Assembly (NCBI GenBank): GCA_030638735.1
Contig: DAOWEB010000162.1
Span: forward strand, 65,416-99,404
Source: Spirochaetaceae bacterium
GTDB lineage: Bacteria; Spirochaetota; Spirochaetia; B11-G9
Direction: 5' to 3'
DNA length: 33,989 nt
Shown: positions 194 to 19,412 of the stretch, in pieces
How positions within the stretch are numbered: position 1 is the stretch's first letter
Layout: each line of letters begins with the position of its first letter
Notes under the pieces: model-generated
The model's database searches: none
The model's input: the letters and a program-made list of their open reading frames with translations, nothing else
What the model was told of the DNA's origin: nothing
Position numbers and translations under genes: made by a program

Positions 194-220
194 CAGAGGA
201 TGCATCTAATGCACCCTCTG
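194..220 (-). terminator. Hairpin terminator ending the tmRNA coding piece
   Basis: The arms CAGAGGGTGCAT and ATGCATCCTCTG (minus strand) pair over 12 bp with a 3-nt loop, followed by TTTTATTTAATTT. The one non-Watson-Crick position is a G-U pair only when read as minus-strand RNA, which fixes the strand. It begins 7 bases after the tag stop codon, so it may also serve as the hairpin that normally follows the tag frame in tmRNA. Confidence 0.8.
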
Positions 221-227
221 AGTCGCT

Positions 228-266
228 TTAAGCTGCTGCTTTAAGCTGTGGCAATGTAAATTTGCC
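228..266 (-). other. ssrA: tmRNA proteolysis-tag reading frame (GKFTLPQLKAAA)
   Basis: Thirteen codons read GKFTLPQLKAAA then TAA. The seven bases before the proposed resume codon GGC are AATAACA, matching AATA at -7 to -4 before the E. coli resume codon (AATAGTC), including the invariant A at -4. Glycine as the first tag residue fits Bacteroidetes tmRNAs. The tag ends AAA where most tags end LAA or similar, and its body is unlike usual tags. The frame stays open upstream to a TGA, so a longer tag cannot be excluded. Confidence 0.75.
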
Positions 267-328
267 TGTTATTACACAATTGTTCTCTATTCACCCTTTC
301 TTCCTGCTGTCAAATCCAATTCAGCCCC

Positions 329-588
329 ATAAAATACTATAACCCATACCTAAAGAGTGCTGATTTAAAACGAGGTAGCAATCCCCTGGTGAGCCTCCGG
401 CAGTATAGTTGCCTGCTCATTAACTTGTCATCTTCTGAGATATTTCTATCGTTATAGTTAGTGTTAAATACTCGCACTTCTACGATAATTGGCAAGATGA
501 TTCTATAAGGAAATCATCAGTCTAATGAATGCTGTAAACATTTCAGTGATTAACTAATTTACATTTTACAGACCTTATAGAATCATAG
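329..588 (-). other. Intervening segment of permuted tmRNA gene
   Basis: This 260-base segment separates the acceptor 3' end (589) from the 5' end of the coding piece (328) and should be removed during processing. It is long compared with many such segments. It holds a 14-bp inverted repeat (497-510 with 573-586) that starts two bases past the discriminator base, so the long hairpin abuts the 3' processing site. A second possible hairpin has GAGC/GCTC around GGCA/TGCC near 390-425. I see no open reading frame and no convincing group I intron core. Confidence 0.7.
497..586 (-). repeat. 14-bp inverted repeat in tmRNA intervening segment
   Basis: ATGATTCTATAAGG at 497-510 is the exact reverse complement of 573-586. 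The 62-base loop carries a weaker inner pair (TGTAAA/TTTACA). Its outer edge lies directly beside the tmRNA acceptor end, suggesting a role in folding or cleavage of the precursor. Confidence 0.85.
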
Positions 589-725
589 TGGAGCTGCGGA
601 GTTTCGAACTCCGGTCCAAACAGTCCTTGAATGAATGTCAATGAACATTAGTGTCAGATTTAAAAAGAACTCCGAGACTTCAAAAGCGTGAAACGTTTCC
701 TTGTTCCCGGAGTTCCACCCCAACA
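589..725 (-). ncRNA. ssrA: tmRNA acceptor piece (pseudoknot, T-arm, 3' end), permuted gene
   Basis: The minus strand reads GGAC, T-stem CGGAG (613-609), T-loop TTCGAAA, T-stem CTCCG (601-597), acceptor CAGCTCC (596-590), discriminator A (589), then CTA. This is base for base the layout of the E. coli tmRNA 3' end, except that CCA is not encoded. Upstream, GAACTCCG (near 712) pairs with CGGAGTTC (near 668) around an inner loop, as expected of the last pseudoknot domain. The 5' boundary near 725 is a guess from the start of the structured, GC-richer block. Confidence 0.87.
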
Positions 726-937: not shown

Positions 938-1699
938 CTAATTTACTTTTGGTTTTTTAATTATTCTATAATTAGTATATTCTTCCCGGACCAATTTAAG
1001 GATTTTAATTTGTCCTTTACCTGTTAATCTGGGAGTAAATGATGTTCCAGAATACAATGGATTATTTATCTGAGTTTCTGACAATTCAAAATAATGCATA
1101 TATTTCTGGTAAGGTTTATTATTATCCATAAGGTATCCTCTCCATTTCAGAAATGCAAATAATCTATTTTGACCGATATCATCAATACCATGATCTTTTT
1201 GAATTACTTTAGCAAAATCACCTATTTTAATGGATCCTGTACTATGTTCAATAACTGTAGCAAGATCTACTTTAGGTTTATCAGATCGTATTTTATCCTG
1301 AAGTGCTAGTTTCTGTTTCTCATTAATGATTGCAAGTTCCAGTAATTCAATTTTATTCATATGAGAAGGGTTCATAACAAGTAAATTACGTTGTTTCTCT
1401 GCTTCAATGAAGTATTTCCTTGCTTTACGGCCCTGGTCGTTATTTTCGATCATAGAGAGTTCTTTGGCCATATTAACAGAAAGGGCATATTCAATGATTG
1501 TGGTACCGCCTTTTTCTCGTTTCACAATTTTGTGAAATGAAACATAGTCCTCATTTACAAAGAATTGATATTTTTTAATTCTTTGTTGAATCCAATCAGA
1601 AAATTTACGTTTACTTTCTAAGAAATTATGTAATTCACGACCATCTACATAATCTCTACCTGTTTTACTACCTTGTCTTATTTTAATTAATTCATTCAT
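938..1699 (-). CDS. Phage antirepressor, AntA/AntB and KilAC domains
   Basis: The 253-residue protein has an AntA/AntB-type N-terminal domain (about residues 10-90, with VDGRELHNFLESKRKFSDWI and FFVNEDYV). A KilAC-type C-terminal domain follows (about 140-245, with LIxx-like IKIGDFAKVIQ and GQNRLFAFLKWRGYL). Proteins of this type bind or titrate repressors and act in phage gene regulation. The ATG at 1699 overlaps the TGA of the upstream 54-aa gene, so they are probably co-translated. In crAss-like phages such proteins occur without classical lysogeny, so a repressor partner is not implied, and none is seen here. Confidence 0.88.
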   Translation of the reverse strand: MNELIKIRQGSKTGRDYVDGRELHNFLESKRKFSDWIQQRIKKYQFFVNEDYVSFHKIVKREKGGTTIIEYALSVNMAKELSMIENNDQGRKARKYFIEAEKQRNLLVMNPSHMNKIELLELAIINEKQKLALQDKIRSDKPKVDLATVIEHSTGSIKIGDFAKVIQKDHGIDDIGQNRLFAFLKWRGYLMDNNKPYQKYMHYFELSETQINNPLYSGTSFTPRLTGKGQIKILKLVREEYTNYRIIKKPKVN

Positions 1700-9818: not shown

Positions 9819-9826
9819 CTACTAAT

Positions 9827-9875
9827 TTGTAAACTGCCATACCGTGTGTTAACAACTTGTAAACTGCCGTATCGT
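9827..9875. promoter_or_regulatory. Two 19-bp direct repeats between divergent promoters (operator)
   Basis: TTGTAAACTGCCATACCGT (9827-9845) and TTGTAAACTGCCGTATCGT (9857-9875) differ at two positions and are exactly 30 bp apart, about three helical turns. Each lies eight or nine bases from the -7 box on its side, so a bound protein would cover both -33 regions. A diverged copy is at 5511-5537. Confidence 0.72.
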
Positions 9876-9884
9876 AATTTTACA

Positions 9885-12555: not shown

Positions 12556-13602
12556 ATGAATCTTAAAACAGTAGAACCATATATCATCTACAAAGTAATT
12601 GCAGGAAGTAAAGCATATAATCTCGATCTTCCTACATCAGATACAGATATCCGTGGAGTATTTATACTTGAGAACTGGAAACTACTTTCTAATAACTACC
12701 ACGAACAAGTAGGAGATAAAAAATCAGATATCGTATTTTATGAGTTTAATCGGTTTATGGACCTTCTCTCCGGTGCCAATCCAAATATACTTGAAAATCT
12801 ATTCGTTCCACAAAGATGTATTCTACATAAAGATCCTGTGTTTGATATTCTATATGACAATAGGGAGCTGTTTCTTACAAAGAAAATCAAGTATACATTT
12901 GGTGGATATGCTATCTCTCAGATTAAGAAAGCCCGTGGACTGAATAAGAAGATTGTTAATCCTATTCCTAAAGAAAGAAAGACACCACTTGATTTCTGTT
13001 ACATTATCAGGAAAGATGATGGATATATGTTTATCGCAAAGGATTATTTTAATATCCATACAATCAAAGAGAAACAAATAGGTCTTGCTGAAATGCCAAA
13101 TGGACCTCAATTGTTCAAGGCTTATGCTGATGTCGATGGTGGATATCGTGGGATTTGCAGTATTGATAGTGATGATCTTCGTCACAGTGAGATTCCAAAA
13201 GGAGAGATTCCGTTTGGCTTTCTATGGTACAATAAAGATGGTTATTCAACATATTGCAAAGAGTACAAACAATATTGGGAATGGGCCGATAATCGCAACC
13301 CTCACCGCTATAACGACAATGTAGCCAATAAGCACAATTACGATGGGAAAAACATGATGCACTGTCTCAGGATGCTTGATATGGCCATTGAGGTAGCTAA
13401 AGGTGAAGGGATGATCCTGGAACGTCCTAACAGGGAGTTTCTACTATCTGTACGTAAAGGAGAAGAGTCATATGATGATATCCTTGAAATGATAGAAGAA
13501 AAGAAGATTCAGATGGACCAGGCATTTGATAATAGTAAACTACCCGAGAAACTGGATAGGAAATTAGTTACTGAGATAATTCGAAAAACAAGAAATATTT
13601 AA
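12556..13602 (+). CDS. Nucleotidyltransferase, pol-beta superfamily
   Basis: The 348-residue protein carries the pol-beta-type signature GSKAYNLDLPTSDTDIRGV at residues 17-35, with GS followed by DxD (D29, D31). It then has the FMDLLSGANPNILENLFVP segment typical of the predicted nucleotidyltransferase family COG3541, to which T4 NrdC.11 has been related. Such enzymes transfer a nucleotide to an RNA, protein or small molecule. The substrate here is unknown. It is the longest gene of the small-gene operon. A tRNA-related or host-defence role is speculation. Confidence 0.86.
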   Translation: MNLKTVEPYIIYKVIAGSKAYNLDLPTSDTDIRGVFILENWKLLSNNYHEQVGDKKSDIVFYEFNRFMDLLSGANPNILENLFVPQRCILHKDPVFDILYDNRELFLTKKIKYTFGGYAISQIKKARGLNKKIVNPIPKERKTPLDFCYIIRKDDGYMFIAKDYFNIHTIKEKQIGLAEMPNGPQLFKAYADVDGGYRGICSIDSDDLRHSEIPKGEIPFGFLWYNKDGYSTYCKEYKQYWEWADNRNPHRYNDNVANKHNYDGKNMMHCLRMLDMAIEVAKGEGMILERPNREFLLSVRKGEESYDDILEMIEEKKIQMDQAFDNSKLPEKLDRKLVTEIIRKTRNI

Positions 13603-19001: not shown

Positions 19002-19412
19002 ATGAAAGATCCACATTTTAAGTTCCAACCCTTTGAAGATAATATAGTTATCAAAAGAATTGTTATTGAATCTGTAACTTCAAAGAAAGCATCAAAATCA
19101 AATATTGTTATCCCGGAAGCTCAAGCGGTAAAAAATCTTATGGAGCATGAAAAAAGAAAAACAGAAGAGTTTGCTCAATATAGTCAGGCAGAGGAAAAAC
19201 TTCTTTCTCAATGGGATGAACATATGAACCAGGGAGTAGTAGTTGCAGTAGGTCCGGGAAGATCTCTTGAAGAGGGAATAAAGATTCCAATCGCTGCAAA
19301 GGTCGGTGATAGAGTTTATATAAGGGGGATGGTTGGTGAACCGATTATATACAATAAAGAGGTATATTGGATCATTAAAGCACATGATCTTTTCGGAAAA
19401 GTTTTAGTATAG
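19002..19412 (+). CDS. GroES-like co-chaperonin
   Basis: The Cpn10 fold is recognisable in PFEDNIVIKRI (10-20), SNIVIPEA (33-40), QGVVVAVGPGRSLEEGIKIP (77-96), VGDRVYIRG (101-109) and YWIIKAHDLFGKVLV (122-136). The mobile loop region that should bind GroEL is enlarged by a charged helical insertion (about 42-75), so the protein is 136 residues against about 95 for GroES. Phage co-chaperonins such as T4 gp31 help host GroEL fold the capsid protein. The position just before the structural genes fits that role. Confidence 0.86.
   Translation: MKDPHFKFQPFEDNIVIKRIVIESVTSKKASKSNIVIPEAQAVKNLMEHEKRKTEEFAQYSQAEEKLLSQWDEHMNQGVVVAVGPGRSLEEGIKIPIAAKVGDRVYIRGMVGEPIIYNKEVYWIIKAHDLFGKVLV

Follow-up and report, generated by a model that had tools for sequence, protein, structure and literature searches.

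Phage-encoded tmRNA and permuted ssrA genes

In the human gut, crAss-like phages rank among the most abundant viruses, and permuted tmRNA is known already from records of gut members of this group. Among 18 crAss-like reference genomes, five (cr7_1, cr124_1, cr50_1, cr130_1 and cr53_1) exceeded the cut-off of the Rfam model for permuted tmRNA (RF04321) and cr272_1 scored just under it; all of these belong to the Suoliviridae. At the corresponding locus, the RefSeq feature 'transfer-messenger RNA, SsrA' is present in 3 of 3 gut Suoliviridae records checked, and it does not state 'permuted'. Furthermore, the cultured Maribacter phage Panino (PP540027; 62.2 bits) and Chryseobacterium phage MA9V-3 (PV245944.1; 64.7 bits) encode permuted tmRNAs. 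The Panino paper (PMC11590407) and the MA9V-3 paper mention SsrA, and the term 'permuted' is absent from the passages retrieved. The lack of precedent implied in a preliminary description of the locus studied here does not hold in view of these records, to which the locus adds another member.

PMC9004378 provides a general survey of permuted tmRNAs in phages. Methylophilales phage Melnitz and the marine phages treated in that survey resemble the present case in carrying a phage-encoded permuted ssrA gene, of a type described as alphaproteobacterial and associated with a glutamine riboswitch (PMC9004378); no such riboswitch was found in the DNA analyzed here by Rfam search. According to PMC11915505, RF04321 was merged from the alpha, beta and cyano permuted models, and 79 phage tmRNAs were counted. 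A literature search, outside most subscription journals, yielded no text on permuted tmRNA in crAss-like phages. Two unannotated phage genes were observed in addition, namely a permuted tmRNA (63.3 bits) in Tunturiibacter phage Tunturi_3 (PP885686.1; L193:1971-2195) and a standard tmRNA (87.6 bits) in Cellulophaga phage phi40:1 (KC821612.1; L194:1683-2044). In the latter, gp041 (1765-1938), called on the strand opposite the tmRNA, is probably spurious.

The phage contig and its presumed host

The window, i.e., the whole stretch of 33,989 nucleotides that was analyzed, forms the end (positions 65416-99404) of a contig of 99,404 bp. Terminase, portal and major capsid proteins of this contig match phage families. 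Its large terminase subunit (TerL) is 39-43% identical to those of Suoliviridae (Crassvirales), the nearest group, and its major capsid protein is approximately 37% identical to those of Steigviridae. Based on TerL and major capsid protein homology, the contig represents a crAss-like phage of the order Crassvirales, in agreement with the preliminary description. Other products of the phage include an RlaP-like nucleotidyltransferase of an RNA repair family (window 12556-13602) and a GroES-like Cpn10 (19002-19412), and two tandem imperfect 30-nt repeats at 9824-9883 lie between divergent gene clusters, representing a possible control region.

The expectation of one-piece tmRNA in the presumed host group was borne out: the standard model (RF00023) exceeded its cut-off in 23 of 30 genomes related to the window's assembly, ARAGORN called one-piece tmRNA in those checked, and same-genus genomes carry it. 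We read the tmRNAs of these relatives as Bacteroidota-type; the phylum is our own reading, and it is uncertain to which host the phage contig belongs. Neither SmpB (searched in the phage contig and the assembly) nor a one-piece host tmRNA over the cut-off was found in the assembly, which is approximately 90% complete. DNA of the tmRNA locus was absent from 29 related genomes, and a TerL scan of genome contigs detected nothing. Low-scoring hits of the permuted model in further genomes of the same phylum were rejected, as they represent 5' halves of standard tmRNAs. In one same-phylum bacterium (L062:1212-1795; G027:C1, about 3.28 Mb), a standard tmRNA with the tag ADEALPVAA has, about 20 bp beyond its end, an additional tmRNA 5' half (tag AESNLALAA; RF04321, 73.6 bits), a 5'-3'-5' layout resembling the tandem-duplication step toward a permuted gene.

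Layout of the permuted tmRNA gene

On the minus strand, the acceptor half of a tmRNA (approximately 647-589) comes first and the coding half (328 to approximately 194) follows. The features of the locus are listed below; L198 denotes the environmental crAss-like relative IMGVR_UViG_3300029286_000313.

938-1699, minus strand: AntA plus KilAC antirepressor gene, upstream neighbor outside the tmRNA
662-716, minus strand: GC-rich hairpin and U run just upstream of the acceptor piece (79-nt fold)
589-647, minus strand: acceptor (3') piece with P2 strands, GGAC, T-arm, acceptor 3' strand and A589 (RF04321 alignment and pair table)
597-613, minus strand: T-arm CGGAG-TTCGAAA-CTCCG (CGGAG 613-609, TTCGAAA 608-602, CTCCG 601-597)
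590-596, minus strand: acceptor 3' strand CAGCTCC, pairing with GGGGCTG at 328-322
589, minus strand: discriminator A (motif inspection)
586-588, minus strand: CTA where CCA would stand; CCA is not encoded
329-588, minus strand: intervening sequence of 260 nt between the two halves
497-586, minus strand: branched hairpin within the intervening sequence, closed by a perfect inverted repeat of 14 bp (586-573 paired with 510-497)
194-328, minus strand: coding (5') piece with acceptor 5' strand, D-like region, P2 strands, tag ORF and terminator hairpin
322-328, minus strand: acceptor 5' strand GGGGCTG, pairing with CAGCTCC
ending at 309, minus strand: GGATTTGAC of the 5' half, D-like
228-266, minus strand: tag reading frame GGC...GCT TAA, encoding GKFTLPQLKAAA and a stop; the frame agrees with L198
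185-220, minus strand: intrinsic-terminator-like hairpin (220-194) and T-rich tail, gene end

The comparison of Rfam models suggested in the preliminary description favored its proposal of a circularly permuted gene. Searching the whole 34-kb window, RF04321 scored 58.0 bits (E-value 6.2e-9) against a gathering cut-off of 47, with a match extending over 646-228 on the minus strand and the halves in swapped order. The alphaproteobacterial permuted subtype was rejected, since alpha_tmRNA (RF01849) reached only 27.6 bits at a cut-off of 50 in an Rfam search whose listed matches did not include the standard tmRNA, and the tmRNA of the window is not assignable to any bacterial permuted subtype. A standard one-piece tmRNA was likewise rejected, because the 5' half does not lie upstream of the 3' half and the standard model gave only a weak match of 19 bits in the region. 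Furthermore, an intron-form tmRNA was discarded, as the T-loop is unbroken and no group I intron was matched in Rfam up to an E-value of 10. ARAGORN did not call a tmRNA gene in the window, which is perhaps attributable to the 260-nt intervening sequence.

The locus thus combines a 3' half ahead of a 5' half on a single strand, an intervening sequence between them, a 7-bp acceptor stem with G3-U70, a discriminator A, a T-arm, the D-like GGATTTGAC, a P2 helix between the two pieces and a tag frame with resume codon and stop. The motifs initially described, among them the T-arm, both acceptor strands, the discriminator A, the tag frame and the terminator (220-194), lie where they had been placed. 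The extent initially assigned to the 3' half (589-725) needs revision: the mature piece probably differs from it, because the conserved piece starts at approximately 647 and the hairpin region 725-648 is missing in L198 and Panino. We infer the 5' end at approximately 647, since the TGTTC start is conserved in both phages. The region 725-648 is strongly folded (z -3.6; none of 200 shuffles as stable; 79-nt fold), and its hairpin (662-716), absent from both relatives, is a candidate for either a leader hairpin or the terminator of the upstream gene.

Pairing and covariation across the two halves

Base pairs were compared among ten phages, comprising the window and nine related phages. All seven acceptor pairs form in the window, including the G-U at pair 3 as initially described, and this G-U is present in 10 of 10 phages. 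Pair 4 is G-C in six phages and C-G in four, pair 5 varies on both sides (G-C, C-G or U-A), and T-stem pairs 1, 2 and 4 covary. The exception among the ten is cr272_1, in which pair 6 is C-A. Moreover, the first P2 helix (P2a) covaries, with CUGUU/GACAG in the window, UUUGGUA/UACCAAA in cr130_1 and also ACCAGCA/UGUUGGU among the ten phages. Further cross-piece helices of the window are formed by AUUCAUUC (636-629) with GGGUGAAU (296-289) and by UGUUC (647-643) with GAACA (285-281). Because acceptor stem and P2 pair across the 260-nt intervening sequence and covary in ten phages, the two halves belong to a single RNA. In a cruder test on 51 loci, duplex energies averaged -14.8 kcal/mol for cognate and -13.0 kcal/mol for non-cognate halves, cognate halves not being better at every locus, and those of L198 were no better than chance.

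Related tmRNA genes in other phages

L198 and the contig have seven gene products in common, the longer ones being 45-63% identical (DnaB 59%). The permuted tmRNA of L198 (RF04321, 69.7 bits) precedes dnaB and shares its strand, an arrangement also seen in the contig at a different distance; it encodes the tag GKSINFVQPELRAAA and likewise ends in a GC hairpin followed by a T run. It differs from the window in its shorter intervening sequence (66 nt) and in having neither the upstream hairpin nor an adjoining antirepressor gene. ARAGORN also misses this gene; permuted tmRNA is common in phages, and annotation by ARAGORN only overlooks some members, such as those of the window and L198.

The gut Suoliviridae tmRNAs share permuted order, G3-U70, a tRNA-like domain, a mostly noncanonical tag end and a crAss-like phage context with the window, whereas their tags follow the pattern [GD]N...DYT rather than GK...LKAAA and their intervening sequences comprise 70-214 nt instead of 260. 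Panino resembles the window in its permuted order, its TGTTC...CTGTTTGGAC acceptor piece and a tag starting with GK-, but its intervening sequence is 39 nt long, its tag ends in QFA and the gene lies within a tRNA cluster. Its TerL is nearest to those of Callevirus (Pervagoviridae) phages (approximately 41%) and only 21% identical to that of the window.

Screening IMG/VR with one DNA pattern yielded 80 loci, approximately 50 of which have the 5' half downstream and are therefore permuted; of 35 records tested, 6 also matched the same terminase family strongly. The patterns CTGTTTGGACNNGAGTTCGAAACTC and ATTGGATTTGACAGCAG retrieved no tmRNA relatives from IMG/VR. The tmRNA gene seems dispensable, because the contigs of the nearest TerL relatives, most of them fragments, showed no permuted tmRNA over the cut-off.

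Tag peptide and proposed function

The window tag GKFTLPQLKAAA and the L198 tag GKSINFVQPELRAAA align at both ends, with a shared start GK, a shared end L[KR]AAA (LKAAA in the window, LRAAA in L198) and a drifting middle. Together with the common resume context AAC(A/T)GG(C/T), this supports the reading frame of the window. ClpXP recognizes the last residues of the tmRNA tag. Among 30 distinct one-piece tmRNA tags from genomes of the same phylum (e.g., ANDNNVDYALAA), all 30 end in [LIVMF]AA and 28 in A[LIVMF]AA, compared with 1 of 8 crAss-like tags (cr53_1, IAA) ending in [LIVMF]AA. Adding Panino and MA9V-3, this end occurs in 2 of 10 phage tags and A[LIVMF]AA in none; Fisher p values for the tag-end contrast (6e-7 and 8e-8) are too small, as related sequences were counted as independent. 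Since phage tags do not terminate in the A[LIVMF]AA of host tags, the phage tmRNA may rescue ribosomes without marking the products for ClpXP, or with weaker routing. Alternatively, phage tags could be served by a phage unfoldase, which an annotated ClpX-like protein of MA9V-3 would fit. This protein is encoded a few kb from the tmRNA with the tag GNVIDINKYVAKLEVAA (L192, 1-127 and 3941-4299).

Taken as a whole, the locus is best explained as an ssrA gene in circularly permuted form, carried by a crAss-like phage and predicted to specify a two-piece ribosome-rescue RNA (probability roughly 0.88). The order of the halves, the tRNA-like domain, the helices joining the pieces, the tag frame, the terminator and the kindred gene upstream of dnaB in a related phage can be read directly from the sequence, and the tmRNA is real and probably working. 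By analogy to known two-piece tmRNAs, RNase P would cleave the precursor before G328, trimming would follow behind A589, the 260-nt intervening sequence would be lost, host enzymes would add CCA and alanine, and acceptor stem and P2 would hold the pieces together. Partnered with host SmpB, the RNA would then enter stalled ribosomes and add GKFTLPQLKAAA. With less certainty, ribosomes might be freed during infection while fewer products reach host ClpXP than via the host tmRNA.

More tentatively, Crassvirales and related Bacteroidota phages may possess a permuted tmRNA lineage of their own, with tags lacking the host ClpXP degron. Such an RNA could compete with the one-piece host tmRNA in infection and free ribosomes, the tagged chains being spared or sent elsewhere; in crAss-like phages recoded to read TAG as sense, a possible task is the relief of ribosomes reading past stop codons. 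A permuted tmRNA was found in 5 of 6 phages with a TAG-recoded TerL (counting cr272_1, below the cut-off) and in 1 of 6 others, a co-occurrence that is confounded by phylogeny and represents only a lead.

It is unlikely, albeit the best-surviving alternative, that the RNA acts as a decoy, its tRNA-like domain binding host SmpB or ribosomes and thereby blocking host trans-translation, with an incidental tag. Such a role was proposed for the tRNA-like-only RNA of mycobacteriophage DS6A, reported as a tmRNA inhibitor (PMC4131195, PMC11915505), and would be compatible with phage tags without a canonical degron. However, an open tag frame, a similar resume context and the stop are kept in 10 of 10 phages, and the tags of window and L198 retain both ends while the middle drifts; this conservation counts against a decoy, which would need no such frame.

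What makes this tmRNA interesting is how widely the permuted form occurs in crAss-like phages and how far the tags diverge. A crAss-like group with its own ribosome-rescue RNA, in a form unused by its presumed hosts and with tags unlike theirs, offers a way to test how such phages deal with translation in the host, and in light of the tag data redirected tagging is of greater interest than first supposed.

The intervening sequence

With 260 nt, the intervening sequence of the window is longer than in the nine related phages (39-214 nt) and falls inside the range of 17-309 nt observed for IMG/VR phages. The inverted repeat at its start reaches 14 bp, a length seen in 0 of 300 shuffles; the whole sequence folds ordinarily (z -1.2). 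It matched no Rfam family, group I intron or tRNA, phage records contained no convincing relative, and its GC-rich core had no exact match in IMG/VR. An involvement in processing is a guess.

Its length in excess of the nine relatives, together with the missing ARAGORN call, could indicate a decaying or disabled remnant that has lost its function in this phage. This is improbable, as every acceptor, T-stem and P2 pair is intact, the tag frame is open and agrees with L198, and long intervening sequences also occur in cr50_1 (214 nt) and in some IMG/VR phages with matching halves (185-309 nt). Adjacent fragments of two unrelated one-piece tmRNAs, or a rearranged assembly, which the preliminary description had named as possible objections along with a missing model match, can practically be ruled out: nothing was found in their support, the pieces covary across ten phages, in L198 a permuted tmRNA with a matching tag precedes dnaB, the half order is identical in independent genomes including the isolates Panino and MA9V-3, and the standard model is weak in the region.

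In cr130_1, the intervening sequence (L348:1555-1660) appears tRNA-like by eye, with the T-arm CCAGATTCGACTCCTGG, and that of cr50_1 also holds a T-arm-like stretch; neither ARAGORN nor Rfam called these stretches. Furthermore, a RAGATH-22 RNA (155.6 bits) is located approximately 0.45 kb upstream of the permuted tmRNA of cr50_1 (L347:879-1045).
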